Shown here piece by piece: positions 7,453 to 61,300 of a DNA stretch of 64,000 bases (the stretch's first letter is position 1; each line of letters opens with the position of its first letter). The stretch lies in contig CM065883.1 of assembly GCA_033439255.1 (NCBI GenBank), positions 1,674,001-1,738,000 of the forward strand. The letters are read 5' to 3'. Made by a program: the position numbers and the translations under genes. A model generated the notes under the pieces. The model was not told the origin of the DNA, ran no database searches, and saw nothing but the letters and a program-made list of their open reading frames with translations. The DNA is from Hericium rajendrae. Lineage: Eukaryota > Basidiomycota > Agaricomycetes > Russulales > Hericiaceae.

Positions 7453-10400
7453 ATGGACCACACCGACGTAGCCACCAACGGGACGAGAGATGACGAGTTC
7501 CATGCCGACAAGAAGAGGGTCTGTTGATCATGCCTACTATATCTCGTTTACGGTCGTCTCTTACTGACCGAACTTTGTGGAACAGTTCGACTCCTTCCGC
7601 TTGGGCGGAGGTCAACCTTTGTCCTCAACCGCATCCATCTCAAACACAAGATCATCATCACATTCACGTTCTCACTCTCGCTCCCACTCTCGCAACAATT
7701 CTATTTCAACTGCGCCTTCTCTTTCTTTTTCTACTTCGAGCAATTCTACGAACGATATGTCTTCTTTTTCTTTTGGTTCGCAGTCTACTGGCTCTACTTC
7801 AAGCAAGCGCAACTCGCATCATCGTCGTCGCTCCTCCGTTTCCACGCGTCGAGAGTCCGCAGAGGTCATGGGCGTCTCATTACCGGAGCTTCCGGTTTCC
7901 CACAGCGAGGAGAATATTAATCTTGGCGACAAGGACTCAATTCGCAGGAGGGCCCTTTGGGCACTGGAAGGGAAGACCGACTCGTCCTTTTCTCCTGTGG
8001 AGATTCCCGAGCTTAACAGCACTGAGGTTGAGAGGAGGATTTTCGAATTCCGTAAGTGTCGTTCGATCACTGTATCATCAGAAAATTCTCAACATATTCG
8101 GTAGCGAGCAAGCCATCTTATCCTCCGGGGATTGGTGGTTCATATGGTTCCGGCTTGAGCGGTCTCGCTAACAAGCGGGACTCGTTCGGCAAGCACCTCG
8201 TATCATCCTCTGTTAGCAAGGACCAGCTCCACACTCTGATCGAGGAGGAGGAAGAGGAGGAAGAACAAGATGTCCCCGCCACACCCGTGCCCACTGCATC
8301 TCCCGCGGATGTTGTGGAATCTCCCGTCGAGATCGTTACTCCGCTCCCGTCACCGCCGCGCCACCGCCCAGCGGGCCTCAACCTTCGCCCCTTGTCACTG
8401 ACGCCGCAAAGCATCGTCACTACTGTCGATTTTGATGGGCTGCCAACTCCGGATCTTACGCCGAGCCCCAGCAAGTCATCAGGCTTGCGATCATTGACTT
8501 TAGGATCTTCTCCTAGTCTAATTTCCTCCCCTTCGCCTTCCACGGCGACTACCGAGACCGCTGAGAGTGCCACGTCTTCATCGACCGCTGCCTCTCGCCG
8601 ACGTTCTTTTATCCTGCCCTCTGTTGGATTACCGAATGTTAACGCATTCCGTCGCTCTTCGCTCAATCTGCGGCGGGACAGCGTTTCGTCAATCTCCTCG
8701 GATACCGCAGAGAACAAGAGGCGCAGCAGCATCTGCTACAAGCCGTCGCGCAATTCTGCGTCATATGGATTGCCCACGCCGGACTTGACACCCACGACCG
8801 ACCGCCGCATTTCCTTCAGTTCGGACAGCGAATGGGGTGGCGACCGATCGTTTCCGAGTGAGCAACAGTTTCTTTATCAATCACATGCTGCCCTTTTATC
8901 CCGCATCACGGACCTCGAACGTGCCTTGTCTTCTTCCCGGACGCATTCCCGCCCTGTGTCATACGCATCTGACGCATCTGCGCAGAGCATTACTTCGGAA
9001 CCAAGCGACGAGATGCTCCGACTCATCGCCGATCTCAAAGCGGAGCGGGACGAACTGAAGAAGGACGTGGATGGCTGGCGCGTGCGTGTAGCCGACTTGG
9101 AGAAGCAGCGCGGTCTTTTGGCAAACAGGGTTGATTTGGAGAGGAGGGAGGCCTGGGTTGCCCGTGAGCGCGTCGGGCTCCTGGAGATCGAGAAGCGCGC
9201 GGTGGCGAAGGACGTGGAGGAGAAGACCGCCTTCGCAGAGGAGATGGTGCGGAAATACGAGGCGCTTCAGGCAGAATGCAATGCCATTAACGAGGAGCGC
9301 GACAGGCTTCTTGAGCAGGTCAAGGGAGCTCAAGAAACTGAGACCGAGTGTGCACGCCTCAGAGAACAATTGGCGGGAGAAACTTCACGGAGGGAGGAAC
9401 TGGAGCGGGAGTTGGAGGGTGCTGGTTTACTCAACACTCCCACTCCGGACGCCTTCGATTTCAGGTCTGCAGCCGCTACATCTTTCATGCGTCGGCGGGG
9501 ACTTGGACTACAGTCCGTTGATTCTGAGAGCTCGTTCACCGATGTCGAATCCGTTGACGGATTGTCTGGCAAGAGTTTCGAGCTCAATGCGGTCATCGAG
9601 GAAGAGGAGCACGTTTTCTCTGACGAAGACAACGGCCTCGCTGGTTATGAGGACGAAGAGGAGTTCGATGAAAGTTTTGAAAGCCCTGGCGGATCGTCTA
9701 TCGCATCGATGGACGATCTCCCTCCCTCCACTTCTCATCTCAAGCTGGAGATGCCGACAAGTGCTCCAATGTCCGTCTCTGCGTCGCCGACGCGGTCAGA
9801 TCCTTCGTCGCCGTCTCATGAGCGTCGTACGTCTCTGCCGAGGGTGTGGTCCTTCCCGGCGAAGGGCTCTCTCCCCACTCTGCCTCAGCGTTCACCCGAA
9901 GAAGTCGATCGTTTCTTCGGGTGCTTGGAGGATTTGGAGGATTCACCCCCCGCCTCTTCAACGACCACCATGGCCAACCCATTCGCGAAAGGCTTTGCTA
10001 TTGATAGCGAGGACGACGACATGCCACCTTTCTTCATTCCATCTGATGTTGGTGTTGAAGTTGTTGAGACCGCTGTGCTCGAAGCGCCCGCGACGGGTCT
10101 TGACAGTGTCACCGAGGAGGAGGAGCCTGAGGAGGAGGAGTCTGAAGAGGAGGGCCTGTCCGTTGTCGACGAAGAGGAGCAGGAAGAGGAAGAGGAAGAG
10201 TTCATCGGTGAAGAGGTCGAGGGTGGGATCAAGTTCACCTTCACTATCCCGCCGGCGTTCGACTCCCCTGTTTCCACCGAATTTGTCCGGACGCCTTCCC
10301 CTCCCGGTCTCCTACCAGGAAGCCTTTGCCGGTATATGAACCTTCAACGGACGACGAAGATTCATTCTCTTTTGGATCCCAGTCGGCGCCGATGCCAATA

Positions 10401-11270
10401 CAGAAGTCCCCAACACCTGGACGGTCACCTGCCAATGTCTCGCCATCCTCAATTCCCCGTGCATCGGTTCTGAAGCGGCTCGAGACACCCACTAAGATCC
10501 CGGCTCCGCAATTTGGATCGCCTCGTTCTGTGCCTTCGTCGTTCATGACACCGCCCACCAAGCGAGGTGGTACCCAGCCCTCGTTCATTCCGCAGCCTCG
10601 TCATGAACTGGCTTCACCTTCGAGCAGCCCTCGACCAAGCGCTATCCCGCCGCCGAAGTTCGTGCCTCAACCGCAGCGGAAGTCCGTCGCACCCAATACG
10701 TCCACGAGGATCAAGCTGCAGTCTCCAAATGGTGTGACCTCTCACTCTGGATCCTCCTTCAGTACGCCTAATCCCTCTCTTTCTGTTTTCGTTTAGCCAA
10801 CATATGTTCGACCAATGTATCCAGGCTCCCCATGCGCTGGTCGGCCTTCGGCATCGCTGGAAAGCAGCAATGCTGAGTGCAGCTCTTCCGCAGATCAATT
10901 CTCTGCAGTGACGACTCCCCCGCTCGCGGCACGATATTCTTTCCAAAGCCTTACGAAAATGATATCCATTTCTTCGTTCCATTGGGCGCCCCGTTCAGCC
11001 GCGTCGTGCATGATACCGGAGGCCTCAAGCTCCAGCACGATCGGCAGCGCTGCGGATGAGCAGTTATCTTCAACGTCGCCGCAGCGGGCAATGCCATTTT
11101 TTGGTGGTGGGAGCAGGCAGGCGAAGCCCGAGAAGCGTGGCTTTGTGTCGAAGGAGCAGCAGCTGGTTCGGCTCCGGTTGAGGATGGAAGAGGAGATGCA
11201 GGGCAGGACGGCGGGTCTTCAAAGCAGTATACCGTGTAAAATGTGCAGGGATCATGAGCTGGCCTTCTAG
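7453..11270 (+). CDS. Large Ser-rich, coiled-coil, acidic protein of unknown function
   Basis: Not a family I can name. Firm exons are 7453-7518, 7586-8051 and 8105 to about 10318. The reading then continues in another frame from about 10319 to 10755 (a base appears to be missing in a GG run near 10318; an intron with a poor donor is less likely), followed by a probable intron at 10760-10795 and an uncertain C-terminal part ending near 11270. Order of regions: Ser/Arg-rich N-terminus; long Ser/Thr-Pro-rich stretch with GLPTPDLTP twice; a strong coiled coil at about residues 430-620 rich in Glu, Arg and Leu; acidic blocks including EEEEPEEEESEEE; and a Pro/Ser-rich tail. FSFGSQS occurs near both ends. 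The composition suggests a phosphorylated cytoskeletal, polarity or septum scaffold, but that is inference. Exact C-terminus unresolved. Confidence 0.7.
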
Positions 11271-12532: not shown

Positions 12533-12840
12533 TTTTCTGCATCTGAGCACATGCATGGAGTTGGTCACATTTTCCAGCGAATTGCATCTGTGTATGTAGA
12601 GATCTAAATCGAAGCTTCATCGTCCATTTGTCGTCTTCCATGACCACACCCTCTGAGCGTGACCCCCTTGTGACATGACGTCGGCCCGGCGGGCTCAACT
12701 GATCGATGGCTCTTGCCTGAAGACAACATCGAGGGCGCTCAACAAGTTCAAGGATGCTTATTTAAGACTTGCACACAGACGCCAGTCCTTCCGCGTAACC
12801 ACCATCTCTCGTTCCCCGTATAGCAGGATTTGTTCGAACC
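12533..12840. other. Short intergenic spacer
   Basis: 308 bp between the NDUFA4-like stop and the ARA2-like ATG. No gene or repeat seen; it must hold the terminator of the first and promoter of the second gene. Confidence 0.5.
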
Positions 12841-14242
12841 ATGGTTGTCGCCCTCGATTCAGCGCAGCCAGTATTCACCCTTCCTCCTCTAGACTCTATA
12901 GCAGATACGCAAGAGGACAAACCAGTCCCTGGTCGGCCTTTGGTATTTCAATCGTATTTGTCTAGCACCTGGAGTTCTGACGAGCAACAAGGAAGAAATA
13001 GGCCCCTTTAGATTGTCGTCGTTGGTATTCGGCGCGGCAGCATGGTCGCACTTCTACAACAACGATGACCTCCTCGCCAGTGACGTCCCTGTCCGAACCA
13101 TCCGTCTTGCGTTGAGGTACGCGCCCGAAAGTCATACTGGTAGCATGACATTCTGAATATGCGGCGTTAGGTACGGAATTCGGACGTTTGATACGTCGCC
13201 GTATTACGGGCCATCTGAGATTGTACTCGGCACGGCGTTGAAAGCTTTGGAAGTCGAGTTCCCTCGTACATCCTACCAACTAGTTTGTCTCCCTGTGTAT
13301 TCCGATCACCATGAATGATTTGCTAAATTGCTTCTCTTCAGATCACCAAATGCGGCCGCTACGGCTCCTCAGACTTCGACTACTCCCCAGCGACCATACG
13401 CCGAAGCATCGAGCGCAGCCTGGCGCGTTTCCATACCAACTATCTCGATGGAGTATACCTGCACGACGTCGAGTTCGTCGCCGAGGATGTCATGCCTCAG
13501 AAGGCAGGGCATGCACACCGCCGCGTTGGGCGCAGAGGCTGAGGCGTTCGGGCTGAAGGAGGGACAGGAGAGCAAGGTGTGGGGGCCAGGCGATCAAAAA
13601 TCCTGGATGCAATTGCGGAACTGCGAAAGATGCAGGCCGAGGGTCTCATCAAGTACATTGGTATCTGTGGTACGTCTTTCGTCATGTCAGACTTAGCAGT
13701 TTTTGAATATTTGAAACTTGTAGGCTTTCCCCTCCCAATGCTCCTCCGTCTCTCCCTCCTCGTGCTTCACACAGCCCCATACCGCCCGCTTGACCTTGTC
13801 CAATCCTACTGCCATCTGACTCTGCAGAACGCGACACTCCTCGCCTTCCTTCCCGCCTTCCTGCAGCGCGCGCGCATCGGGCAGGTGCTCACCGCGTCTC
13901 CGCTCTCGATGGGGCTCCTCACGCCGACCGTGCCCGGCTGGCACCCGGCCCCGCAGTCCGTGCGCGACACGTCCCCGCGCGCGGTGGAAAGCGCGGAGGG
14001 ATGGGATGATGGCCTGCCGACGCTCGCGATTGCGTGGGCTGTGAAGCGCGCGGAGGACGGACTGGGTGGGGAGGGCGTGATGCCCACTGTTGGTCGGGCT
14101 GAGCAAGCCGCAGGAGGTGCATCAGGCTGTGAAAGGCTGGCGGGATGTCAAAGATGGGGTAAACGAAGAGAGGAGGGAGGAGTATGCGGCGAAGGTGATC
14201 AAGGTCTTTGAGGATGGCGGCGTCAAGGACTGGTCGTGGTGA
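12841..14242 (+). CDS. ARA2: D-arabinose/L-galactose-type dehydrogenase (aldo-keto reductase), frame interrupted
   Basis: NAD(P)-dependent aldo-keto reductase of the ARA2/L-galactose dehydrogenase group, which makes the lactone precursor of erythroascorbate. Pieces in order: LSSLVFGAAAWSHFYNNDD (about 13012-13068), exon 13171-13282 with YGIRTFDTSPYYGPSE (Asp and Tyr of the AKR active site), exon 13342-13669 beginning ITKCGRYGSS (active-site Lys) and containing LDGVYLHDVEFV (active-site His), and exon 13724-14242 with PLDLVQSYCHLTLQN and the C-terminus VFEDGGVKDWSW. The frame changes near 13490, at the A5 run near 13594 and at a GG near 14087. The join of the first exon near 12960 is also out of frame. 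Every part is otherwise well conserved, so I favour sequence errors over a true pseudogene, though decay cannot be excluded. Converges on STI1 with 200 bp between stops. Confidence 0.75.
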
Positions 14243-14441
14243 ACCTTGCCGAACTTTATGATCTAGAAACTCAAGTGTAGAAGAAGTAGATTCAACAAGT
14301 GTTATTGCAACGACAATTGATACAAATAATGCAGCCTTCGTGACTTCATGACTTCATAACACAAAGCAGACCCAGTAGATGTTCAAGATAAATCCAAACA
14401 AGAATGGCTTAGCCTACGTCCCCTCACAGATTTACCTCCGC

Positions 14442-16615
14442 TCAGCGTGTCCTGATAATACCGGCATTGATCAGTTTCTGGATCTTCGTCCTGACTCCCG
14501 GGTTCTTCATGTGGTCCTGCAAGCGCCTGCGGGTTCGACTGCGCTTGCTGAAGAATGGACTGCATGACGGGGTCGTTCATGATACCCTACAAGCAAAGTC
14601 AACATGACGATCTCACTGTCAGAACGAAATGTACTCACAGCCACCTCCGGGTCGCGCATTGCACGCTCGAGGGTCTCCTGTTCCGACTCGCCCGCGCGCT
14701 GCTGCATGAGCGCCTGCTGGATCTTAATCATCAGCGACTGGATCTCAGAGATATGCTTCCCCTCGTTGTCGTGCTCGGTCGCCTCCTGCGCGGCCTCAAG
14801 CGCCTTGTTATGATCGCGCATCGCGAACAGCACGTTCGACTTGCGGATGTACGCCTTGACGAACGTGGGATCGACCTTGATCGCCTCCTCCGCATCCTTG
14901 AGCGCCTCCGGGAACGCGACCAGCTTGGTGTACGCCAGCGCCCGGTTGTTGTACCCTCGCGGGATCGCTCGGGTTCCGCTTGATGCTTTCCGAGTAGGCC
15001 TTCACCGCGCCCGCGAAGTCGCCATCCTTGAACAACTTGTTGCCCTCCTCGCGCGCGACTTCCGCCTTCTCAGGGTCGATATATGCCTGGCGATCAGCGT
15101 CGGCCTTGGCCTTCTGCGCGTCGCGCAGCTTGTTGAGGATGTCGGGCGTGCGGTGCTCGGTGAGCGACTTCTCGAAGAAGCGGACCGCGGTCTCGAGATC
15201 GTTTTTGCGCAGGTAGGCGCTGCCGATGCGGCCGTAGGCCTTCGCCACGAGCTTATAATCGGCATGAAGCTGGATAAGGCGTCAGTTTGTGAAGCGCGCA
15301 TCGATTCGCCATGAAGAACAACGCACCTCGCGACCCTCCTCGACAGCTTTTTCGCAAGTCTGGATGGTTTTGTCGTAATCGCTTTGCTCGTAATACACGG
15401 CTGAAACCTTAGAATCAGCATCGCCCGCCCTCGCATTTGAAACATGAGAATACATACCGCCAGATTGGTCAAGAACGTAATGTCCTTGGGCCACAGCTCC
15501 CAAGCCTTCTCGAAGTGCGTCGCCGCATCCTCGAACTCGCGCTTCTTGTACGCCTCGCTACCGAGCTTCTTCTCTGCCTCGGCCGCCTTCTTCGCCTGCG
15601 CCTCCTCTGAACCAGTTTCCGGCTCCGCCTCTTTCATCTCGACGTCTTCTTCTTTGCGCTTCGGCGGTGTGGAGGTCGAGGCCTTCGGCTGGGGAGAAGG
15701 TGTGGGCTTAGGCGAAGGGGTCGAGGCGCTCGCGCCAGGAACGCCGGGAGGCAACTCCTCCGAGCCTTCTGGGCGGGTGAAGCCCTGCATGTCGATGCCC
15801 ATGAGCACACCGAGGACGTCGATCATGCGCGGGTCGCTCTGGAGGAAGTTGTTTGCCATCGACGGGTTTTTCTGCATCGCTTGAAGCTAGTGCCACACCA
15901 TTGGGTAAGATAGACGGATAGAAGAAAGGAATGAGTAAAATCTTACCATTTGCACGAAGTTTGGGTCTGCGAGATGCTTCTGGGTGCGGGGGTTTGTGGC
16001 GAGCTTGCCAATCAAGTTCGGGTCCCCGAACATCTTTCCGAGACCCATCGCTTCTGCGCCCTCTCCTCTCTCGTCGGCAGCTACATGAATCGTGCAGGTG
16101 GTTCAGATTGCATCGTAAGTTGCATAATGAACACCATGCTTACCCTTAGCAGCCTTCACCTCCTCTAGACCCTTCTTAAGCGCCGGGCTGTCCTCGAGCT
16201 TCAGACCCGCCTCATACGCCTCGATAGCCTGGTCATATAGTCGCTGCCCGTGCAGCGCTGCACCCTTACGCGCAAATCCCTTCGACCAACTCGGGTTCAC
16301 TTTGATGCACTAGCAAAAAGCAACGATTCAAAATCGGCATTTCATGCGTCGGTGCCTCCTGTGGCGCGCACCTGCTCTGCGTCCTCGAGCGCGGCTTCAT
16401 AGTCCCTCTTGCCCGCCTTCGCGGCACTTCGGTTCGACCATAGCACGAAGTTGCTCTGATCAAGCTCGAGGGCCTTGGAGAAGAGCTCGATAGCGCGATC
16501 GTAGTCTTTGGCCGAGAAGGCCTTGTTGCCCTCTGCCTTCAGTTCGTCTACCTATCGAGCGTGTTAGAGACAGTCAGTCTATCATCTGCGTCTAAGTACG
16601 ACTTACAGATGACAT
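14442..16615 (-). CDS. STI1: Hsp70-Hsp90 organising co-chaperone STI1/HOP (TPR protein)
   Basis: Cytosolic adaptor that hands client proteins from Hsp70 to Hsp90. Eight exons on the minus strand: 16615-16607, 16551-16372, 16309-16144, 16080-15947, 15886-15458, 15407-15327, 15269-14639 and 14586-14442, about 590 residues. Order: TPR1 (ELKAEGNKAFSAKDYDRAIE, NPSWSKGFARKGAAL), first DP repeat (DPNLIGKLATNPRTQKHLAD), a Pro/Ser and Glu/Lys linker, TPR2A (GSEAYKKREFEDAATHFEKA, YDKTIQTCEKAVEEGRE), TPR2B (AREEGNKLFKDGDFAGAVKA), and the second DP repeat (DPVMQSILQQAQSNP). Two single-base frame changes are visible, near 14960 (CCC run) and near 14521 (TT). Beyond the second, another frame supplies the canonical end NPGVRTKIQKLINAGIIRTR. 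Both are probably sequence errors in a conserved gene. The first exon holds only three codons. A heat-shock element lies about 100 bp upstream. Confidence 0.92.
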
Positions 16616-16704
16616 TGTAAAAGGTTGAGATTATCGAATCGCCGTGAGGTCAGGGTAGGACGCTAGGAGAAGAACAAGTTATATCATAGTTGCGCGCCGT
16701 CCCG

Positions 16705-16727
16705 GAAATGTCTAGAAACTTCGAGAA
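16705..16727 (-). promoter_or_regulatory. Heat-shock element in the STI1 promoter
   Basis: The core gaaacttcgagaa (16715-16727) is a perfect inverted three-unit HSE (GAAnnTTCnnGAA). Another in-phase GAA sits at 16705-16707, with an imperfect unit between. It lies 90-112 bp upstream of the STI1 ATG, the expected place for Hsf1 control of this co-chaperone. Confidence 0.7.
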
Positions 16728-17026
16728 CTCTGGTCCCGATTTGTCCAACTTCGAAGCCTAGCGCCCAGCTGTTGACCACATATTTACTGAATCCTTGGAA
16801 AAATCGGAGAACTTGAAAAGCCTGTAGTATACAGCAGAACAACTACAGGCAGGGGCGGAAAGCTTAACTGCTCGAGGCATGAAACGTCGAACGAAACTGC
16901 ATGGTCCTGCGCCGTAGGCATTCGGTGCATCTCTACTCACCTGCCCCAGCATTGGCCATTGCCCTCAAGTAGTTCACAGACCATGGGGAAACGGGGAAGT
17001 TTTTCTCGCACCCTCTCGCCTGGCCA

Positions 17027-17035
17027 AAAAAAAAT
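17027..17035 (-). terminator. RNA polymerase III terminator of tRNA-Ser
   Basis: A run of nine T on the minus strand begins about 19 nt beyond the 3' end of the tRNA, the usual Pol III stop signal. Confidence 0.7.
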
Positions 17036-17054
17036 GGTGTTGTTTTCCCATCAC

Positions 17055-17136
17055 CGACGCCAGCAGGACTCGAACCTGCGCTCCCAAAGGGAAACAGATT
17101 TCTAATCTGTCGCCGTAACCACTTGGCTATAGCGCC
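17055..17136 (-). tRNA. tRNA-Ser (anticodon AGA)
   Basis: 82-nt cloverleaf on the minus strand without intron. The acceptor stem pairs GGCGCTA with TGGCGTC (two G-U pairs), discriminator G. D-loop region AGCCAAGTGGTTACGGCG, anticodon loop in CAGATTAGAAATCTG (anticodon AGA, five-base stem CAGAT/ATCTG), long class II variable arm TCCCTTTGGGA, and T-arm GCAGGTTCGAGTCCTGC. The long variable arm plus AGA defines serine. It reads UCU codons, and UCC by wobble after A34-to-I editing. Confidence 0.96.
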
Positions 17137-20100
17137 GTAAAATACCGGATGGAAATAAATACATCACTATATGCCAATATACAGGTTCAGTAATAAGTTA
17201 GACATCGGGACCTACCTCGACCCCATCTGAGCGCGTGCAGACCTGATATGGAGCTCATGTTCTCCATATTCCCTCCAGAACACCATTTCAAGCTGTAAGC
17301 CCATGAAGCAACATGCTTTGTGAGGGACGAACATGCATATGAGCATCACCATCAACTATGCGGCCCCGTCATGATGGTCTCCCAAGCAGCGCCCGACTCT
17401 GCTGCAAAACACCGTTACTTGGAAAGGGATAGCGAGGTAGCAACGCGCAGCGGACCGCTTATCCGCCACCATCCATCCCTGACCATCGTCGGCAATGACG
17501 CACCACCACCGATTTCAAGAATGCAGCTAGCGGCGCTCACGCGACCAAATAGCATCTGTCAAACCAGACAAAACAAGCTCTAACGCTTACTGAGAGTGCC
17601 AAGCCCAGCCCAAGTCACCATTGACGCGTCGACCGACGTTGAAGATCAACACAGCCAGCGGACGGAAGTCGGGACGGAGGATGGAGATAGACAGGGCAGC
17701 ACAGGCGTCCGCGGCGCGCGGGTAAAACATGCTCCTGTGCGAGTCTTCGACATCAGAACACCGCTTGGTGGGAAGCTGCTGGGCACTTGAAACACCTCTC
17801 GTGGGAGCTCCGAAGTCGACGACGAGGGCCGCACAAAGCGCGCCCCCTTCTGGTTCTCGCGTCTGTTCTTTGTTACGGCACAGATAAGCGGGGGGCCTGA
17901 GTGTAAACGGCTCGAGAAACTGTCCCGCGGGGCGCGGTTTTAGTCGAGCATGGCCGATGGTAAGTCATTGGCGTCTATGTTTGTGTCTGTGCCGTGGAGA
18001 CGCAGACCATCAAGACATCAAGACGAGAAGCAGCGCGAAGATTGCGAGCTCAACTGCCTTTCGTAAAACTGCCCCGCGAAAGGCGCTCCGAACTCGCACA
18101 CAGCGGGCTCGGGCTCGGTTACATAGGCCTTGCTCGCCCGTACTGAGCTGAGCAAGAGTGATCCGAACAAGGAATGAACGACGCTGGTTGGAAACTCACC
18201 GAACAAACCTGTAAAGTTCGGACGTCCGAACACGGAAATGAACACTGGCGGTGATCACCCCGCTGTTAGCTCAGCTCGCGCTCCGAGTCCGCGTCATGCT
18301 GACTGACAAACCGAGCCGGAGAGCGAGCTATAGCAGACTATAGCGCAAAAGCAGCGGGCATTGCCCAGTGACGTCTGGGCTGCTCTGCGCAAGCCACAAA
18401 TGCACACCGCAATCTGCAAGATATCCCCATCGGTGCATACGTCCGAAAACATGGCTTGGCGCAATCGTGCGTGACTGTCTGCTCCAATTAGGATGCAAGT
18501 GACTGAGGATATACGGAGATAGGTGGCAATGTGTGTGCGGGAGCATTGAATTTGGAGGCGCATCAACGATATGCCTTGATTGGACGGATATCGACAATGG
18601 GGAGGGTCATAGGAGTGTCATTAATTATAAGTGATATCATGCAGAAAGCGCCTGCGAAAAAAGGGTCGATGGACGAATAGTAATGGGAGGCGATCACTCA
18701 CCTGTCTTTCGGTGAATACTGTAAGGAACGGTCATGTCTGTAAGGGTCAACTAGAATCACTGAAAGAGACGAGAATCTTCTGAGCTTATGCATGAGACGT
18801 CGCTGAAGACAAGCACCCGCGAACAAGCATTTAAATAATGATTGGGCCGTATGGAAGTCGTCCATTTGATCTGCCTGGGTGTGAATATTAAAAGGTACGG
18901 TCACATAGGTCGCATGGTCTTGAGATTCGAAGCCTGTCAACTCTTGGAGATGGTCGAGTCAGAGAATGGAAGGACGAACTGAATAGATGCTCACCCGGAA
19001 CACCAGCGAAGCCTCGCTCGTCGTAAAGCGGCGCAAATGAACTGAGAAAGACATACCTATGTCCCGATAGACCGCATCCATTAAATCACCACGCCAGCGG
19101 TAGTGAATTAGTGATTCATCTTTTCATCTTTGACGCGCCGCAAAACGTAAACACTGTCAACTGCAGGGCCGCGGCCTTGCCGCAAATGTAACCAACCCAT
19201 ACAGAAGTGGAGCGTACGGTCAGCAAGACCAGGCTCGGATGATGAAAACGCAGGGCCGCGGCCTCTCAAGACGTATGCATGTACACACGACACCGAGTTC
19301 TAAAACATGAACGGTAGTTAGCATATGCTTAAACCGTATTAGGATTGAGAAAGTGTACACATATATGACATGCCGAATAGCCGCCGTTTCATGTCGGGCG
19401 CATGACGGGCCACAGCACATCCAAGAACGGCCCCCGACTGCGGGATCTCCTGAAGGCGCAGAGGAAAGAGCGAGCAAGGGAACATGACGCACAAACCAAG
19501 GCCAGCGACCGCGACGATCGCCATGAACATTCCGGCCCAGAGCGAGTGTGTGCATCTAGGCGAGATGGGCGATCGGCGATCCTGTGGGTGCTCGTGCCGC
19601 TAAGGTCTCGCTAAGTTTAAAATTACAAGTGGATCGCATGCGCACCGGGGACTCACAGTGGCCGACATGGTCGAAATTAGGCAGAATTCGGCTTCATTTG
19701 TCAGACTCTCCATGTGCTATTAACGCCGGAAGACTTGGTGTGAGTTGTATGAATAATGGTTAGGGTGGTGAAGACGTACGCGTGAACCCATGGGGAATCA
19801 TCGCAATGACGGTGTGCCGCTGGTTTGACCTGAGTATCAACCGCATCGAGTGTTCTGTGAGGCAGGAGCATGGCCTGCGCAGACCATGGGTGAAATCCCC
19901 TGTAAGAATGTCAGTTTCGCAATGCTATTCTGTCCGGCAAGGATCAGCGCTGTATCCTGAGACTTGGACGCGGCCTGGACAGTCGCACCTGACATATGAG
20001 TGTCCCGGCTTCTATCTGATGCGTACTTCAGCATGGCCTGCACGTAAAATGTCGAGTAACTGGGACCGGTAGTCGTAGTGACCCGCCGACACGCATATTA

Positions 20101-34300: not shown

Positions 34301-35378
34301 TGAAGAGCCCCCAGCCCCTTGCTGGTGGCTATGCGGACCACTGCCGCCCCCGCCCCCACCAGGACCACCAGTAAAGGACCCACCCCGGCGATTCCCATAA
34401 TCTCTGTTTCCACCGAAATTGCCGCGCGATCCGTGTCCTTTTAGCTGCTGACCGCCTTGCCCTCCGCCCCGACCACCACCGTACATGCCACCACCACGTC
34501 CCCGGCCCGCACCTCCTCGATTGTTCCCCATATTCCCACCTCTGCCTCTACCCGGCCCGCTGCCCCGTCCTGCCCCCTCCCCCTCTGCCCGGAGGCCCTA
34601 CATTCTGCCCGCCTCCGCGCCCGCCTCCGAACATACCACTCATCTGCGATGGCTGACTCATAGGCCCAGAAGGCGGCGGCGGCGGCGGCGGCTGAAATTG
34701 TGGTTGGGGAGGCGGTGGTACCTGCTGTTGAGGCCGACCATTATGCTGCCCTGACGAGTCGTACTTCGGGCGTTTCGCAGGAGGTAAATGCTGAGGGGGA
34801 GTGTGGTGAACGCCGTGGCCAAAATGCTGCTGTTGCTGCTGAGGGGGCGGCTGGTGTTGCCGCTGTTGCTGGGGGAAGAATTGACGCTGTTGCTGGTGTT
34901 GCTGAGGCGGGGCATACTGCTGCTGAGCAATCAACGGAGGCTGCAAGGGCGCTGGAGCAGATTGAGGGACATATGGTTGGGCGAATGCCGCCGCTTGCTG
35001 AGGCTGATAGGGATTATATGGCTGGGGTTGTGGGGGAGGTATGTGAGGCTGAGGAGGCTGGAATGGTGCTTGCGGAGGCCGGTGCTGCTGCTGCTGCTGT
35101 TGCTGCCATTGAAAACTCTGCTGACCGCCATATCCATAATTCGCGTAGAGTGAAGATTGCTCCGCAGGTGGCCTTGGTGGTGGTGCTGGCGCTGGCGCCG
35201 CCGCTCCTGGCCACTGAACGTTGTATGCGGGCGCTGCATGTGGCTGAGCTGCTGCCGCTGCTGCTGCCCAATATGCAGAATAGTCCGGCTGCGAAGGTTG
35301 AGGGGGAGGTGGCCCCGGTGGCAATGGAGGTTGCTGAGGATTGTACGATGGCTGCGGTGCGAATGGATTTTTGTTCAT
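31341..35378 (-). CDS. Large low-complexity protein: Pro/Gln-rich prion-like N-terminus, RGG tract, acidic middle
   Basis: Not a named family. Four exons on the minus strand: 35378-33334, 33167-32191, 32129-31845 and 31790-31341, about 1,250 residues. Order: Pro/Gln/Tyr-rich stretch with runs of Gln and Pro (about 1-260); Gly/Arg-rich tract with many RGG and GGG units (about 260-390); Pro/Ser/Asp/Glu-rich middle with a basic KGKRKK; and a folded C-terminus (GDVQEWLKSMFGRMFWVAGD, IWTVLDGWAQNSTV, and near the end a block LPSHLLHKSLEGIFKEWKVE). The exon 1 frame shifts by one base in G-runs near 34560-34590, between the Pro/Gln and RGG parts. I read this as one protein with a consensus error; otherwise two adjacent genes would be needed. 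The composition is typical of RNA-binding proteins that form condensates, but no RRM or KH domain is visible. Confidence 0.72.
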
Positions 35379-42862: not shown

Positions 42863-45800
42863 ATGGCGGAGCCATCGACTTCTCCCAATCATACAGGACA
42901 AACAGCACCCGAGGATGATGTTCACCTGCTCTCTGACAAGAGCTCGCCCGGCTCCACACCCTCGCCTACTCTTCCCGCCCGTTCGTCCCCGCCGCACTTG
43001 CGCCTCGACGGCAGCGAGATCTTCGACACCGACGACTTCCACCCCGCGCTGCCGTCGCCCCCGTACAAAACCTTCGCGAGCGTCACGAACCTGAACGCGG
43101 CCGCGGAGAGCTACGCCCAGCAGACACCGCCATATCGCTCGCAGGCGGACCTTATGGACACGACCCACGACGACCACGCGCGGTCCGATCCCGACCGCAA
43201 GACGCGCGTTGACGACGACGACGAGCAGAATGATGTGGAGACGAAGGGTGTGAAGCCGACGGTGCACTATCCCGCGGACCTGCCAACCGGTCCCACGCCG
43301 ATATACAACACGATACCGCCCGGCATCGAGCACGGCGATTTATACAAGCTGCATTCGCGGGTGGAGTCAATAGCAGGGACGGATGACGAGGAAGACGAGA
43401 GCGAGGACTACGACTGGAGCAATGAAGAAGACCTGGTGGACGAGGAGGCGAAGTTTGAGGCGCAGATGGGACTAGGGAAGCAAACCAAGGGCTGGAGCTT
43501 GCGCAGGTGCGTGACCAGTCCCCGACAGCACCCGACGCGTCGCCGATGCGCTGACCGGATGCGGATGGCAGGATCCTGTCGCTGCTGTTTCGGTTCTCTG
43601 ATTGGCTCGGTCGTGCTCGCGGGCGTGCTTGTAGCCGGGCCGATCCTTGCGTTCTTCTTCTGGTACAAGCCGCATCCCGACGCGCACCGCCGCTATGTCA
43701 TGGACAACGTCATGGCCTGGCTTTTCTGGGCCGCAGCCAACGTCTTGCTCTCCTGGTGGCTCGCCATGTTCATCGACGTCGCACCCATCGTTATCCGCGG
43801 CGCCGTGTCCCTCGTCTGGGGCCATGTCTCCGAGCGCACCAAGACGCACATTGAGATGTACAACAGTGTGAAGGGCACCATCAAACCGCTTTTCTACGCC
43901 GCGAGCGCGTGGGTTAGCTGGATCATCCTGTTTGAAAGCATCTTCAAACTGCATGACCGTGATGATGCAACGCTCAGCCGTGCGCCGTACACCGAGAAGG
44001 TGTGTGACGTCCTGCGAACAGACCGTGCCAATGCTTAGCTCCCCTGCAGCTGTCGGACGTGGTCGAGTTCCTGTTCTTTCTCATCCTTGTCTGGTGCGCA
44101 CAGAAGATGCTATCCCACGCCATCGGTATGCCGCTCACACTCCATGCTAAAACACACTCACCGTCTCCCAGCCTTCCAGTTCCATCGCATCGCATTCAAA
44201 GAGCGCATCGACGACCTCCGCATGTGCCTAACGGTAATCGAGCGTCTGCGCACCTGGCGCCCCAAGAAGGAGCGGCGGCACGGCCGTTCCCGCACACCCG
44301 TCTTCCCGCTCTCCGACGGCGACGCAAGCAGGCGCGCGACAACCGAGACGCCGTCCGAGAGCGAGTGGGACGGCGACGTCGAGGACTCTAGCAAGGGCAA
44401 GGGCAAGAAGAAGGCGAAGGGCAAGAAGGCATTTATGAAGGGCAGGCGCGCGTCGGCGATCCCGTCCGCGCTGAGCTCCGCCGCGGGCTCGCCGTCAGAC
44501 TCGCCACGCGCGATGAGCCCCGCGCCAGGCGACAGCCCGCATCGCTACCCGCCGACGTCGTCGCCGCAGCATACGCACCAGCACTCGCACGACGATGACG
44601 AGAGCGAGATGGTCGTCGTACAGGCCGCGAAGGTGCTCAAGAACGCGGTGCTGCACGACGCGCGGAACATCGAGGGCAAGGCGGAGGACACGCGCGGACT
44701 CGTGTGGGACGTGGCGAACGCGCACGAAGCCGAAGGTGCGTGTTATCTGCGCTCTACGTGATAAATATCGCAGCGCTCACCCGCGGCTGTGTCCTGCTTT
44801 CCCGCTTCCGTGCCCCTCCGTGCCGTCGCTTGTGTCCGGCATGCTCCATAGCGTCTCGCCCGTGCGATCTACACGACGTTCCGCAGCCGCCACCGGCGCT
44901 ACCTGCTGCCGAGCGACTTCGAGCCAGCATACGCGACGCCGGAGGAGGCGCAGCGCGCGTTCCGCGTGTTCGATGGGGACAACAACGGCGACATCTCGCG
45001 CGCGGAGATTAAGACGAAGCTGCTCAAGGTGTACCGCGAGCGGCGCTTCCTCTCGCGCTCGATGCGCGACGTCGGGCTGGCGCTGCACACGCTCGACCGT
45101 ATCTTAATGTTCTTCGCGGCGGCTATCTTGTTCTTCATCTCGCTGAGCGTGTTCAATGTCAATGTGGAGCAGTCGCTGACGAGCGTGTATTCGATTGGCA
45201 TTGCGGCAAGCTTCATTTTTAAGAACGCGGCGAGCAACGCGTTCGATGCGATTATGTTCTTATTTGTGACTCAGTTAGTACATCTCATTCGGTCTTTTCG
45301 GCTGGATTCTGATTGCTTGCTTTTAGTCCTTATGATACCGGAGATCGGTGCTTCATTGACGGTATGTAGCAGCTATATCCCGCGATGGGCAGGTTATCTC
45401 ATTTTCTCCAGAGGAAAATCTGGTCGTCAAGAAAATGGGACTATTTGCCGTGCGTTTGTTGCGTTCTTGCCTGAAGAGGTTGACTGAGGCGGCATTCGCC
45501 CATCCCAGACTGTCTTTACGCGAGCAGACGGCACCGAGACGTACTACTTCAACAGCCAGCTCTTCAACAAGTTCATGTATGCTTGGTCTCTTGTTCCCGA
45601 AAAATTTCTGACATAACCTCTTCCTTCTAGTACGAACGTTCGGCGAAGTGACGTATGTCTTCTCTCCCCGTCACCTTTTGCAGTCTTCCTCATCTCCGCT
45701 GCTGACAGAAAACGACGGAAATTCTCACGATGCAAGTCGCCTGGAAGACACCGCTCGAGAAGCTCGACGCGCTGGAGAAATGCATCAACGACTGGCTCGC

Positions 45801-46290
45801 ACGCGACGAGAACCGATGGTTCCTCTCCGGCACGTCCATTACGCCGCAGCACATCGTCTGCCAGCGCCACCTCGAGCTCACTATCGGTATCCCGCACAAT
45901 GGGTGCGTCCCTACCTTTCTCTCTTCTCCCTTGCCGCACGCTGACAGGAGCGCACAGGAATTGGCAGGACTGGGGCCTGCGCAACGCGCGGCGCACCGCG
46001 TTCCATGCCGCGGTGCAGTACTATTGCCGGCAGCTCGGCATCGTTGCAAACGAGGCGCCGCTGCCCATCGTCTGGGGCGATAACAGCACGCTCACGTACT
46101 CGCCGTCGCTCGACACCGTCGACGCCGCGCGCCGCCATCGCCGCTCCCCGTGCCCGCCGGGACGACCGGCGCGGCGCAAAGCGCAACTGGCTCGGGTTCG
46201 TGCCGACGGAGAACTCGGCGGCGTCGGACATGCGCGCGGAAGAGCCAGAGCAAGAAGGCGGCGATGCGCGGGCTGGGCGCGGACGGCTAG
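42863..46290 (+). CDS. EF-hand MscS-type mechanosensitive channel (Msy1/Msy2-like)
   Basis: Fungal MscS channel with a calcium-binding EF hand; the fission-yeast Msy1/Msy2 relatives sit in the ER and temper calcium release on hypo-osmotic shock. About eleven exons: 42863-43506, 43572-43999, 44050-44125, 44172 to about 44734, 44852-45273, 45327-45361, 45412-45449, 45509-45576, 45631-45652, 45709-45902 and 45958-46290. Order: acidic Pro/Ser cytosolic N-terminus; transmembrane spans (VVLAGVLVAGPILAFFFW, NVLLSWWLAMFIDVAP, SDVVEFLFFLILVWCAQKML); Lys/Ser loop; EF hand FDGDNNGDISRAE; pore region (SVYSIGIAASFIFKNAASNA); and the MscS beta domain HPYDTGDRCFID. The frame shifts near 43605, at the donor near 44735 (an extra G in gaaggtgcg) and twice in the last 200 bp. 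The expected end is KKAAMRGLGADG. Errors are likelier than decay. Confidence 0.85.
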
Positions 46291-48152: not shown

Positions 48153-49794
48153 CTATGCTTTGACACTTGCGCCCTTGGACACATTCGCCTGCCTCCACAT
48201 CCGCGCTGCCATCCCAGGGCGACGTAATACGATCATCATATGGATCATCGCGGTGAGTAGCGCGACGCTGCCGGCCTGGTGCGCCGCCGCGAGCGGGACG
48301 GGCACGAGATACAGCAGCGTCGAGATGCCGAGCAGGACCTGCACGTTTGCCATTGCGAACGCGACAGCCATGGCGCGCGTTGCTAGTGGCGGTAGGGCTG
48401 CGCGGATTGCAGGGCGGAACGTCGAGGCGTAGAGCGCGCCCGTGCTAAGATAGGTCGTGATAGCCTTATGTTCGGGTGAGTAAATGGAGAGAACGTTGCA
48501 AAGTTGAGGGAGGCTTACAAGGACGCGGTGGTCGAATTGCACGGTGGTCGGGTTTTCGAAGATGTTGCGCCAGAGGCCAGCGCCGTCGGGTCCGGTGGCG
48601 TAGGCCGTGGAAAGAAGTTCGTCCGAAGGGGGAGCGAGCCGGCCGCCCATCAATGGGAACTCGTTGTACAGCAGACCAGCATCAAGGCCAGCGACGAAGG
48701 CACCTGCGCACGCTCGTAAAACCCCAACCCAGCACGGACGCGTCACTCACCTGACAGTGCAGTCAAGAAAACCAGGCCTGTGAGCACTACCGATGCCACC
48801 TTGAAACGCCGCACAACGGGGTGCCGCAGTACGCGCTCCCACTGCGCGCCATCCTGCAGGCCGCTCCACGCGCCCGTGCGCGCGAAGCGCCAGTCCTTGA
48901 GCACCGCAATGCCCGTCGCGAACATGCCCGCGTACAGCACGAGCGCGGCGCCGAGATGCGCCGCGAGGCGGTACTGCGAGACGCGCGGGACGGCACCGGG
49001 CGTGTCGAGCAGCGCGTCCTCGAGGCCGGACTTGACCATGTACCACCCTAGCGCGCCCTGTGCGCCGAGGAGCAGCGCCATGCCTGTGAGCTGCAGGGGC
49101 ATGGCGGCGGTCAGCTTGCGGCGCGCGGCGAAGTAGGCGAGCGGGAAGACGAAGGCGAGGCCGATGAGGCGGCCGAGGATGCGGTGGCCCCATTCCATGT
49201 AGAAGATCGACTTGAACTGCGAGAGCGTGATGGAGTGGTTCAGTCTGGCATCAAAGCATGGATCAGACATAAAACTTTGATTGGGGAAATACAAGACGCA
49301 CAACTTAAATTCCGGTGTGGCCTTGTATTTCTCGAATTCTTCTTCCCATTGCGCCTGAGACAGAGGGGGAGGACGCCGGTGATGGGTCGCCATTCTGTAA
49401 TGCTGAGACCGGATTCCGTGAGACGCGTTACACCGCCAACGACGATCACAGCAAACACCAAGGTCGAAGAGAGAAGCAGCCAGCGCGCGACCGGCGGCGG
49501 CGCGAGGACGGGCAGCGCATCCACGACAGCAGATGAATTGTTCGAGAAAAATCGAGGTTCGATCTTGGCCTTCAGTGATGCAGGTGTAGGCTTAGCAAAA
49601 AGAGCATATCGGCGAATCTGGCTGGAGATGGATGGGGACCGCGCAGACTTGGTTAAGAGCGAGGCGCTGCGTTGTGAGAGCGCAGACACGCGACTCGAGA
49701 GGGTCTGCTGGTGCAGTCCCCGAGACCATACCGATTGAAGGCTAAGAGGGCGTAGATTTGACAGCACTATCCGTGCCAGCATTGCTGGTGACAT
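48153..49794 (-). CDS. COX15: Haem A synthase COX15
   Basis: Inner-mitochondrial-membrane enzyme that oxidises the C8 methyl of haem O to give haem A for cytochrome c oxidase. Four exons on the minus strand: 49794-49302, 49244-48751, 48703-48519 and 48464-48153, about 494 residues. The N-terminus ([20 protein letters not shown]) is Arg/Ser-rich and acid-poor, a mitochondrial presequence. Family blocks: [39 protein letters not shown], the span [62 protein letters not shown] and [16 protein letters not shown]. The four conserved haem-ligand histidines are in the EWGHR, RLAAH, FDHR and AAHQ blocks, within eight spans. One C is apparently missing in the C5 run near 49367, between TGV and LSQAQWEEE. 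The frame is open above the ATG, but the presequence supports 49794. Confidence 0.93.
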
Positions 49795-50105
49795 TGAGCA
49801 CCTCCTGATGAACGTTCCGCAGATGTCAGAAATTCCGCAGTAAATTCCGAAGAATTCTGCAAACGTACCTTGAGACAAGCACTGTCCAGCTGGAGACCCA
49901 ATGAGCGTTTTGTGCAAGTAGCGCTGCGGTGAACTACCTCGGCGCTATAAATGCAAGCGTCGCGACTGGTCGCGGCCAACGTCGACGCGTTCTCGGCGGG
50001 AAGCACTTTTTGGGAGCCACGTGATGTACGCGATGACGGAGCATGGCCGGACTTCGAGCGCGTCACTTCCGTTCCTCTCCTCTAGACCTACCCCGCACTG
50101 AAGCC
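49795..50105. promoter_or_regulatory. Shared divergent promoter of COX15 and BOL3
   Basis: 311 bp between two head-to-head ATGs, both of nuclear genes for mitochondrial proteins (haem A synthesis and Fe-S cluster transfer). No TATA near either start. Co-regulation is inference. Confidence 0.5.
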
Positions 50106-50549
50106 ATGTTCTCGAGAGCAGATCCGGACAGCAGCCCCGCCGCTGCGAAGAATCCGCCTCTACACTTCTGCGGCGCGACCATCGCCAACACCGCCTCCCC
50201 TCTCCCCAATTGGACGAAGGCGAGCAAAATATCTGGAATAAACTCTCAGAACGCTTTCAGCCTTCCGAATTACTTGTGCAGGACGTTTCAGGTGCGTTGG
50301 AGGTGGAGATTCATATATTGGTGAGACTGACAAGAGTCTCGAGGTGGATGCGGCACATTCTATGCCATAACCATCGCGAGCCAGGCTTTCAAGGGCCTCC
50401 CAATTGTGAAACAGCATAGACTAGTGAACGACGAGCTGAAGAAGGAAATAGAAGGTATACATGGCTTGCAGGTACGCCTCATTGCCTGTGTCGTTCTCGT
50501 TATCTCACTGATATTGCCCTCGCAGTTGAAAACGATACCTCGAGATTAG
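50106..50549 (+). CDS. BOL3: Mitochondrial BolA-like Fe-S transfer protein (BOLA3/Bol3)
   Basis: BolA-fold protein that helps deliver 4Fe-4S clusters to mitochondrial enzymes such as lipoyl synthase, with Nfu1 and monothiol glutaredoxin. Three exons: 50106-50291, 50344-50471 and 50526-50549, about 112 residues. The first part is a short Ser/Ala/Pro-rich leader with MFSR at the start. Then comes the BolA domain: QNIWNKLSERFQPSELLVQD, the BOLA3-type Cys loop SGGCGTFYAITIASQAFKG, the signature LPIVKQHRLVNDELKKEI (conserved His) and the end HGLQLKTIPRD. The frame moves by one base near 50205 in a C-rich stretch (cctctcccc) between leader and domain, so one C is probably missing. Divergent from COX15. 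The Cys in GGCG separates BOLA3 from BOLA1. Confidence 0.88.
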
Positions 50550-53907: not shown

Positions 53908-55596
<1,689 letters not shown>

Positions 55597-56773: not shown

Positions 56774-57974
56774 ATGGCTCCTCGAACAACTGCACGTCTA
56801 CTTCCTTTTGCCCCCCGTCAGCAGAGCCCGGCGCCCCATGCCCGTTCGCGTTCACCGTGCAGGCCAAAGCAGCAGGGTGCAGGTCTGTCTGTTTATACAG
56901 AACGGGAATCGAGCCTTCCTCCACGACGACCGATGACGCCTTCAGTGTCATCCATCAAGTCCTGCGACTCTGAATGGGCATCGTCGGGGTCGTCATCATC
57001 TGATTCCTCGTCCGCTTTCTGTGCGACACCGTCGTCTTCACAATCCAGCCCGCCATCATCGCTACCTCCGTCCCCAGCGTGAGTGTTTCCCCTATATTGA
57101 TTTCTTATCATCTGATTGACTTTCTCAATATCGTTAGACCGTCCATTCTCGCTTTTCGAAAGCTACGGCCGCTTCCTCATCCGCCTAGCGATGGTCTTTC
57201 CCCGGTGCCTTCGCTTATCTATTCACCTGACTCGCGCAAGTCATCTTCCTCGAGGGATTCGGCACTGCCTTCGCCTGACTTGCCGACCCCGCCTCCTACC
57301 CGGGATGTCGTTATCACACCTTCCAGCCCACAATCATATTCCCCTCGGCGGACCGTGAGACTACCAACACCTCCGCCTCCGCCTCCGCCTCCACCCCCGT
57401 CTCTTTCCATAGCAACGTCATCACTTCCTGATAACTATACACTCAAGCCGCCGAGACCACCTTCACATTCCTTCCTGTCATTGTCTCCTGTTTCATCACC
57501 CAGGACTTCCGTTCTTTCCTCATTTCTGCTTCCGCCTCTCGCACTCCCTTCGTCAACACAGTCGCAACGCACGTCTATGCTCTCTGTGTTCTCCGGATCT
57601 TCCGAGTCCACAGTAACGCCCCTCACAACACCTACGCAGGCCTCTGCGAAAAGTCACCCTGGCGCATGAAGGGCCCGCGCTTTCGGCACCGCCGGACTTC
57701 GACCGCATCCACGCTGACGATGCCGCGCCAGTTGCCCTCCGTCCCCGCGATGAAGATCAACGCGACCGTCCCACCGTCGAGCATGCCCTTCTCGCCGCGC
57801 GAGTACGACACGCCCGTGAATGCGCATGGATGGTCGCTGGCTGGCGACCGCCGGAGCTGGTTCAGGCGGCGGACGGGCGAGGAGCAGTGGATCCCGGGCG
57901 ACTGTGATATTGAGGAGGACGATTCGACGATCGACTGGGATCTGATTGATGAAATCATGGCGTCTTCGGGCTGA
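56774..57974 (+). CDS. Pro/Ser-rich protein of unknown function
   Basis: Not recognised. Exons 56774-57078 and 57138-57974, about 381 residues. The frame moves by one base at an A4 run near 57643, where an A is apparently missing. Order: Arg/Pro/Ser N-terminus (MAPRTTARLLPFAPRQQSPA), Ser-rich acidic patch, Ser/Pro-rich region with SPDSRKSSSSRDS and a Pro run after RTVRLPTP, basic RMKGPRFRHRRTSTAST, and a conserved-looking C-terminus (WSLAGDRRSWFRRRTGEEQW, then EEDDSTIDWDLIDEIMASSG). No domain, signal peptide or membrane span. The many Ser-Pro sites suggest phosphorylation by proline-directed kinases, and the acidic hydrophobic tail could be a binding motif; both are inference. Confidence 0.65.
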
Positions 57975-58378
57975 GGGGCTGGGACAAACTACAATATCAC
58001 GTCTTTCATTGTGAGTAATATTCGGTTTGAACGCGCTTCGCGTGTTTATATCCTATTTACAGGAATGGCTTGATGCCCACATATATACAAGAACACTACA
58101 TGCATATCAACTTCTCGTTTCCCTTCCCGCTCCCATACACTGCGTTACCATCCAAATCTTCTCACCTCGACCGACAGTTGTTGTCTTGTTTACGCCTTCC
58201 TTTTCCTGTGTTTTCGGACATGCGCGCCTCGCGCTAGTGCGGCTCGACCTTACCTTTTGATTTATTTCATCTTTATCTCCTGTGTGTGCTAACAGTTACT
58301 GTGCTGCAGTTGTTGTAGTTCGATAGGACTAATGACTATTATTATCGTGGAGGTAGGAAGGAACATGACATGTAATGA
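57975..58378. other. Convergent 3' spacer
   Basis: 404 bp, AT-rich, between the stops of two convergent genes. It holds both 3' untranslated regions; nothing else seen. Confidence 0.5.
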
Positions 58379-61300
58379 CTACCGAATATATGCACTGCTA
58401 CTGGCACCCTGGTCCATGACATTTAAGTTGCTGTCAAGGTTATTTTGCTGTGCGCTCTCCTCGGCCTTTCGTGATGCTTCCAGTGCTGCCTGTATAATCT
58501 GATCAAAACCGAAGCTTTTCATACGGTTGACTGGTTGAGCCTGCTTCAAGGCTGCTTCTTCACGGGCTCGTCTGTCATACTTAAGCCTGTTGACAACTGT
58601 GAACTGGTTTCGTGGATGTTTGCGTGATCCTGGGTAAATGACTTCAGGATAAAGTTCAGGGCTGGAGGGAATCAAAATTAGACACATCAAATTGAAAGAT
58701 TGAATATAAACTACTAGACTAGATGGTGGTGAGGAACTCACCCTTCAACTAGTGGATTCAAAGAAGTTGCATAGACAATTTCATATTCATATAAAGTGAA
58801 AATTTCATCCTCAGGGTCAATGTTCATGCTTGCCTTAATTTCTTCAAGAACTGAAAAATCACTGTAGTACTTCAGAAAATAATTTGTGTTAAAATATCGA
58901 ACATTCCTTGTTCTTTCAATGAGAACCTTCAAAATGTCACACCAAACAGTATGGCCTTTTGATAAATTATAAAGATCAAAAAGCCTAGTTTTCTTTAAAA
59001 AGGCAGGTTGTGCTGCCCAATTCTGAATAATCAATTGACAACATTGCAAAAATTGATCAGATGAAACATGATCATTCAAACTTTCATGATTGCTTAGAAT
59101 TTCTACAAGATAATTCATCAATTTTTCAGCAATACATATAATACAATCATATGATGCTCCAGTTTTCTCCATTGCAGTTATGCAGATTTTTACCCCATCA
59201 TTTTCAAAAAATTGTTTACATAACAGAGGAGGCTGATTATACAGAGACTTAGAAATGTTTATACAAGTTGTGTCAAACACTTCTATAAATGAAGTCTCTT
59301 TGATTAGTTGGATCATACTAGAAATGAATGTTGTATTTTCTGGTGTCTCATTAGACAAATTGTATCCAAGACCTCCTTGTGGAGTCATGAAACCAGATGC
59401 CTGAAGATAGTATAAATCCATAAATAAATTCAACAGATTCAGTTGTCCATCTACAGTTAATTTTGGATGATGAAAGTATGTACCACTTAAAAATTTGCCT
59501 ATAATATGACATGATTGAAGTACCCATTCCCTATTCTAAGGGCTTTGAATGCAGAAGATGCTCTGAGAGAGACTTGATCATATTTGGTACTACATGCATA
59601 TATTCAGCTGTTGAAGAGTAGAAATTAGTATTAGGTTCTAAGGAACTCCAACTCTCAGGTGAGTCAAGATATTGAAGCAAAATAGAAAACAATAGTCCAG
59701 TAGTTTGACTTTCAATAGAATCATCCTGTATCATAACTTTTACCAATGGAGCACCTTTGACATTTCCATGAGATATCCATAAGAGCTGCATTATCTGTTG
59801 AGTATAATCTGCCTGAGGAAAATTATCCTTATTTTTTTCTAGACACTTTATTAAAAATAAGCCAAAGATCCAAGAATGATGACTTGTCGACTGAGATGCA
59901 CTTCTGAGATTTTTCCAGTATATAATTTGCCTTATAAAATACTGAAGAAGCAGCTCAAGATGATCCTTCACAATTATAGAATCCTCTAGAATACATTTCT
60001 TCAAAACCTTTTGAACACTCTCCCATGAAACTTTGTCAACAGACTGGGGGTGACATTGTGAACAATAAGCCAAAACTTGCAATTCTAAGCTTTTCACATG
60101 TTCTAAAGCAGCCCAGTTCAAGATTATCCATTGAGTGATAGTAGACAGTGGAGCTTCTCCTTTTAAATCAGTAAATTGAAGTAGATATAAATATCCTCGA
60201 AGATACCTCTCTGCCCATACCAGGCCATCTTCATCTTTTAATATGTGAAAAATGCCTTCAATTGTAGATTTGTATTTTTGTAAAAGACTCTCATTGGCAA
60301 AGATCTTGAAGTCATATTTGTCTCTATAAATTCCTGCAAGTGATTGCATAAAAATACTTGTAACTGTTGGATTAGAGGACTTATAGAGCCATGATAAAGC
60401 ATCACTTTCAAGAGACTCTGCCTCCTTGCCAATGATCACATATTCCTTATTGTGAAAGGATTCTCTAGTATCAACATGTTCAGTTTTTGGGGGCTGTCAG
60501 AATACTATTGTTCTCTCCTCAAATTGTTCTGATCTAATGATTTTAAAAAAATTCAAGCTCTTAAGATATAGCTTATGCAAAGAGTATCTCAAATGAGCAC
60601 TTTTATGACAAACAAAATGCCATACATTCACAATCTTATGGTAGACAATATACACATAATCAGATAGAGGAGTCCTATAAGGACAATCCATATAAGCCAA
60701 TGGCAGTAGATTTGAAATGAAGTATGCCAAGTAGGTCACTATTCCAGTACCAGTGATGACCCAAGAGATTGCTACATCCAAAGCACTCAAAAACACTGCA
60801 AGGCCAATAAGGAAGACCAACAGAGACAAATGCATAAGCACAGGCAACATGCCAACAATTCCTTGGACATGCCATTTCTCGAGACCTCGAAATCTGAACT
60901 GTCTGATCTGAACACGAGTTCTGGCTGTTCCGGAGACAGCTGAAACATAGTTCTGCAACCACTGCTTGACCAGCACAGATAACAGAGCAGTAGCCAGATT
61001 GATCGCCAGAGTCGTGAACCATAAGCCATTGACCCAACGGTCATTTGCACTCGGACGGAACGGAGAAGTGCTATTCATATTGGACACGAGGATAGCATCC
61101 GTCGAGGAACCCTGAGAGATAGCCCTCTGAAGGCTCACAAGCTCGGTGAGCAGCGACGCAGAGATCATAGAATAGTCCGGTTGAAGAGCTTGAGAAGTCT
61201 GCACGACGAGTGTTGTAACAACAGCAGAAAAGAGACCAGCCTTTGAAGACACGTCAGTATGAAATCTCCGATGCAAAGGAATAAACCCCACGAAGACAAG

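Follow-up and report, generated by a model that had tools for sequence, protein, structure and literature searches.

The window analysed here is a stretch of 64,000 nucleotides of Hericium rajendrae (GenBank assembly GCA_033439255.1, contig CM065883.1, positions 1,674,001 to 1,738,000 of the forward strand), in which several conserved genes change reading frame within the coding sequence. These include an ARA2-like aldo/keto reductase, the STI1/HOP co-chaperone, COX15, BOL3, an EFM6-like methyltransferase and an MscS-like channel. An earlier note on this DNA had listed 16 single-base shifts, described them as lying mostly at homopolymers and ascribed them to errors of the assembly consensus. 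Frame changes are present in the window sequence at these sites, as seen in three-frame prints of each of them, some with small coordinate corrections. In the conserved genes, the two sides of a shift were joined with an X and compared with Pfam, and for some of them with PDB. The 16 sites were graded as follows: eight are well supported, three (all in the MscS-like gene) are backed by reading frames and codon statistics from a gene finder only, and five are plausible.

Frame changes in conserved genes of the window

A single Pfam match or PDB alignment spans the shift at six of the 16 sites, namely three in ARA2, two in STI1 and one in COX15. Two further sites (BOL3 and EFM6) are also well supported, but there the Pfam match only adjoins the shift or ends at it.

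The ARA2-like gene (plus strand) carries an extra base beside a GGG at 13495..13510 (near 13505 rather than 13490, as first noted; reading frames and gene finder), a missing base in a run of A at 13592..13602 (13596 rather than 13594; reading frames) and another extra base at 14084..14096 (14089 rather than 14087; reading frames, and the gene finder at penalty 6). A PF00248 match spans each of the three, and beyond the last of them it continues for 14 residues. The STI1 gene (14432..16960, minus strand, N-terminal end approximate) was delimited by reading frames, Pfam, PDB and the gene finder. It has one extra base in the region of the C-terminal DP domain (14515..14526, at 14521), which is spanned by PF17830, and another beside a CCC in the TPR region (14952..14966, at 14960), which is seen in the reading frames, TPR models and gene-finder calls. 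PDB chain 7kw7_E (Stress-induced-phosphoprotein 1) aligned over both. A search of the whole genome for a second DNA copy, made for STI1 only, found none. Five of the eight best sites thus fall within 1.5 coding kb of ARA2 and STI1, a clustering with p 0.0016 (p 0.06 over 15 sites), where the sizes of the scanning windows were chosen post hoc. A tRNA-Ser gene lies at 17054-17137 on the minus strand, just upstream of STI1.

In COX15 (48153..49800, minus strand, 5′ end approximate; PF02628, E 9e-98), a base is missing from a run of C (G on the plus strand) at 49362..49373, the site listed as 49367, as judged from the reading frames and the PF02628 match. The gene finder bypassed this shift by predicting a different splicing, and annotation pipelines may likewise hide such shifts by splicing around them. 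BOL3 has an extra base just 3′ of a run of C at 50198..50210 (plus strand, listed as 50205), visible in the three-frame print, and its Pfam BolA match starts downstream of the shift. The three-frame print of the EFM6-like gene places a missing base in a run of A at 54183..54196 (minus strand), at about 54188 instead of 54200, where the PF10294 match ends. A further gene-finder call, at 54009 inside the gene model of EFM6, is absent from the earlier list.

Short introns mistaken for shifts are an obvious concern in an intron-dense genome (469 introns were predicted in the sequence given to the gene finder, with a median of 58 bases), the more so as several junctions in CCT and HSP70 genes elsewhere do look like introns and two of the plausible window sites, at 10318 and 34575, may be of this kind. 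At the eight best sites, however, the family sequence resumes in the other frame within a few bases, far under the minimum intron length of 42 bases that was used, and no space for a GT-AG intron was found between the frames in the three-frame prints and Pfam read-across. Introns are refuted at these sites, and as a general explanation they are highly improbable.

Shifts in chaperone genes elsewhere

The same defect was sought in a whole-genome profile search with HSP90, Cpn60_TCP1 and HSP70, which gave 73 matched pieces. A total of 72 were counted (29.6 kb, including some overlaps and read-through introns; one nested CCT piece was omitted). Junctions between Pfam pieces were dropped as a shift count, as several look like introns (e.g. 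C5:2256702 and C1:696088, contigs being designated C1, C2 and so on), and a junction was kept only if it left no room for an intron. Sampling across the genome covered C1-C8, C10 and C14, each in part.

Five clear single-base shifts were found outside the window, on C5, C6 and C7, all of them in chaperone genes. More specifically, the PDB chains of CCT-delta, CCT-alpha and SSB1 aligned straight across the shifts in the corresponding three genes on C7. In tblastn, the two frames are one base apart in CCT-delta and in the HSP70 gene, and share one base in CCT-alpha. An HSP90 shift on C5 is spanned by its Pfam match, and HSP90-beta aligned across the shift of an HSP90-like gene on C6 with a small gap. 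An initial label of CCT-eta was replaced by CCT-alpha on the basis of the PDB alignment, and a BiP label for the HSP70 gene was given up, SSB1 being nearest. Among the family loci compared, the nearest other match has 32% identity for the CCT-delta piece, 51% for CCT-alpha, 69% for HSP70 and 91% for HSP90, so that neither CCT-delta nor CCT-alpha has a close second copy among them. Other members of the set show long open stretches, such as HSP60 on C8 and HSP70 on C2. Two similar HSP90 genes (C5:2643233-2644958 and C7:2132585-2134313) are 91% identical over 95 residues; among the matched pieces only the C5 gene is shifted, and its C7 relative is intact there.

CCT-alpha and CCT-delta are essential in yeast, and no cell could live without intact forms of these broken genes. 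Such forms could be provided by a second nucleus: the shifts would then be genuine loss-of-function mutations in one nucleus, masked by intact alleles in its partner, and the assembly would by chance have retained the broken versions. Indeed, the sequenced strain, NPCB A08, is reported as a dikaryon with a heterozygosity of 3.61%, and haplotigs were purged from its assembly (PMC10608310); the higher frequency of shifts in conserved genes of the window than in chaperones elsewhere (given below) also fits sheltered alleles. Yet this would require the simultaneous breakage of CCT-alpha, CCT-delta, the SSB1-type HSP70 and STI1, spread over C6 and C7, and ARA2 has three shifts and STI1 two with no other damage seen. 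No internal stop occurs in 1921 residues read across the shifts, and no further decay (stops or lost residues) was seen in the conserved genes so read, both being weak tests as the stretches were chosen as open. Sheltered alleles are therefore considered very unlikely, and slightly less likely still is that one nucleus of the dikaryon carries, under the cover of the other, very many recessive single-base null alleles of housekeeping genes and that the purged assembly kept the copies of this nucleus.

Sign and sequence context

The sign and site of each shift were deduced from the conserved protein sequence, the exact base being approximate. The 13 well-supported shifts (eight in the window and five elsewhere) comprise seven extra and six missing bases. 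Four of the six missing bases have a run of at least four no more than 6 bases away, against a background of 8.1% (p 0.0006), while the same is true of only one of the seven extra bases (p 0.45). The statement that the shifts are mostly at homopolymers thus holds for missing bases and fails for extra ones. GC content is not unusual, with a mean of 0.568 within 50 bases of the shifts and 0.575 for coding sequence.

In principle, frames that are open apart from the shift and resemble their families on both sides could also reflect programmed ribosomal frameshifting, widespread in this species. The mixture of signs and the unrelated contexts, with no shared slippery motif found by eye across the 13 of them, speak against it, as do the PDB relatives, which read straight through the shift sites. 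The probability of such a programme is close to negligible.

Single-base insertions and deletions that break genes are known from Nanopore assemblies, where missing bases occur in base runs and extra bases are often tied to no particular run, some of them following C runs before an A, as described for the assemblies treated in PMC12007338. The shifts reported here are alike in these classes, and the extra base in BOL3 matches the type that follows a C run and precedes an A. They differ in that the assemblies covered there are bacterial and show mostly false deletions (PMC12007338), whereas here the two signs are about even and the assembly was polished with Illumina reads.

Frequency along the genome

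A frameshift- and intron-aware gene finder was purpose-written, and trained and run on the same 234.8 kb of the genome: the window (64 kb), an adjacent 40 kb, four 10-kb pieces of C1-C4 and 90.8 kb in 20 gene-centred regions. With a shift penalty of 8 nats, the window (28.1 coding kb) received 5 calls, the adjacent region (22.2 coding kb) 4 and the gene-centred regions (52.5 coding kb) 13, of which five are homology-checked shifts and eight are candidates. Including the four other pieces, the total is 23 calls in 118.6 coding kb, and the window does not differ significantly from the other regions (p 0.53). The defect thus extends beyond the window and is present on other contigs.

At this penalty, four of the five window calls agree with the earlier list (54009 does not), and only two of the eight best window positions were called (at 13506 and 14954). 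At least one of the calls made with an intron limit of 130 bases, at C7:1051193, was rejected, as an intron of roughly 150 bases explains it better; it disappeared with a limit of 260, and at that limit and penalty 8 the window calls at 7615, 7853 and 57647 vanished as well.

Origin of the frame changes

The assembly from which the window was taken is the published NPCB A08 assembly, as it has the same total length (46,767,965 bp), number of contigs (19), largest contig (5,307,752) and N50 (3,238,877) as given in PMC10608310; C1 and C6 measure 5,307,752 and 3,238,877 bases. According to the description in PMC10608310, sequencing combined Nanopore R9.4 cells with Illumina, and assembly with NECAT was followed by two rounds of correction with Racon, two with Pilon, and purge_haplotigs.

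With a probability of roughly 0.95, judged from sequence, the shifts are residual single-base consensus errors of the NPCB A08 assembly and not a biological feature. Consensus error is favoured because the breaks are clean and affect STI1, COX15 and chaperonin subunits that are essential in yeast, and because programmed frameshifting fails on sign and motif, and introns on space. The earlier attribution to the consensus is thereby upheld: the assembly is an R9.4/Illumina hybrid of a heterozygous dikaryon, the same kind of shift recurs in chaperones elsewhere, both signs occur and no motif is shared. Specifically, R9.4 reads of a dikaryon with this heterozygosity were merged by NECAT and Racon into one consensus, a process that leaves short insertions and deletions, with missing bases mostly in runs and extra bases elsewhere. 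Polishing with Illumina reads in Pilon would leave some of these uncorrected, presumably where short-read mapping is patchy or ambiguous in the heterozygous dikaryon, and the surviving errors would be found in many parts of the genome but unevenly, as in the five within 1.5 kb of ARA2 and STI1. If so, the reads are expected to contradict the consensus at the shifts.

Several points weigh against this explanation: (i) the four other 10-kb pieces (15.7 coding kb) yielded a single call, and the gene finder, which found 218 of 511 simulated shifts (43% sensitivity), was tested on its own training sequence and may have made false-positive calls, (ii) the extra bases show no significant proximity to runs, (iii) two Pilon rounds on the published assembly would be expected to leave fewer such errors, (iv) the HSP90 gene on C5, taken alone, could be a true pseudogene and (v) by homology there are 8 shifts in 8.9 kb of conserved window genes vs 5 in 29.6 kb of chaperones elsewhere (p 0.003, post hoc, with the length of STI1 estimated at 586 residues and the CBM gene omitted), and real loss that spares essential genes would also give a higher rate in the window than in chaperones. 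The excess in the window is an after-the-fact test, because it was on account of such shifts that the window had been selected.

Genes free of shifts had been reported as well. The O-methyltransferase, RGS, cytochrome-b5/MAPR, PRE5 and AMPK-type CBM genes indeed have their Pfam matches in one unshifted reading, with the reservation of a weak gene-finder call inside the MAPR gene model (26252, penalty 6). At the window's own rate, zero shifts in the O-methyltransferase, RGS, MAPR and PRE5 genes would arise by chance with p 0.02. The unequal rates by homology and these clean genes therefore suggest patchiness, and the shifts are probably genome-wide but patchy. The pooled rate of the gene finder is 0.19 shifts per coding kb, or about 0.45 after division by the simulated sensitivity.

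Consequences for use of the assembly

The frame changes are almost certainly an ordinary artefact, relevant mainly to users of the NPCB A08 genome, who face false pseudogenes and false introns in studies of gene families, gene loss and pathways. Extrapolated to the 17.1 Mb of exons given in PMC10608310, the rates above amount to some 3,300 to 7,800 shifts, a rough figure that may include false positives. Without recourse to the reads, it is thus unsafe to take the absence or splitting of a gene in this assembly as biology. The assembly is described as high quality in PMC10608310, in the main text of which neither "frameshift" nor "pseudogene" occurs, and a literature search returned no title or abstract opening, among the matches listed, that reports errors in it. 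Its BUSCO completeness is given as 91.6%, vs 96.4% and 97.5% in two PacBio-sequenced congeners (PMC10608310), and the lower value fits the defect described here.

Less certain positions and neighbouring features

In the MscS-like channel gene (plus strand), a probable shift follows an intron at 43585..43610 (listed as 43605; gene-finder call at 43591, with penalty 6 only) and another precedes an intron at 44720..44740 (listed as 44735; call at 44726, penalty 8). Two or three further frame changes lie at the C-terminus (46110..46245): the first, near 46116-46150, was called by the gene finder at 46116 even with penalty 12, and the last, near 46240, is among the five graded plausible.

These five lie in low-complexity sequence or in sequence without a family match here. 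Possible shifts were seen by eye in a Ser-rich protein (10312..10326, plus strand, listed as 10318) and in the low-complexity sequence of a Pro/Gln-RGG protein (34555..34590, minus strand, listed as 34575); the gene finder made no shift call at either of them. For a Pro/Ser protein (57638..57650, plus strand, listed as 57643), a possible shift was called at 57647 in some settings only.

At 59526..59536 (minus strand, listed as 59530), open reading frames of 321 and 265 codons beside a DUF6535 match abut in different frames. They are part of a stretch of lower GC content at 58738-61753 on the minus strand, with stop-to-stop open reading frames of 418, 321 and 265 codons, which has an in-frame stop at 60497 besides the frame change at 59531. 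Genuine decay into a pseudogene is one possible reading of this region, and a gene of several exons is another.

Downstream of the fuller O-methyltransferase at 984-2891, a partial second reading was observed at about 5093-6400, whose best stretch matches positions 127-178 of the 210 in the Methyltransf_2 profile; it is possibly a decayed tandem copy. Finally, a gene model that runs across the start of the window (-2128 to 443) combines Mitofissin and Sod_Fe_C domains, and probably represents two neighbouring genes fused by the gene finder.

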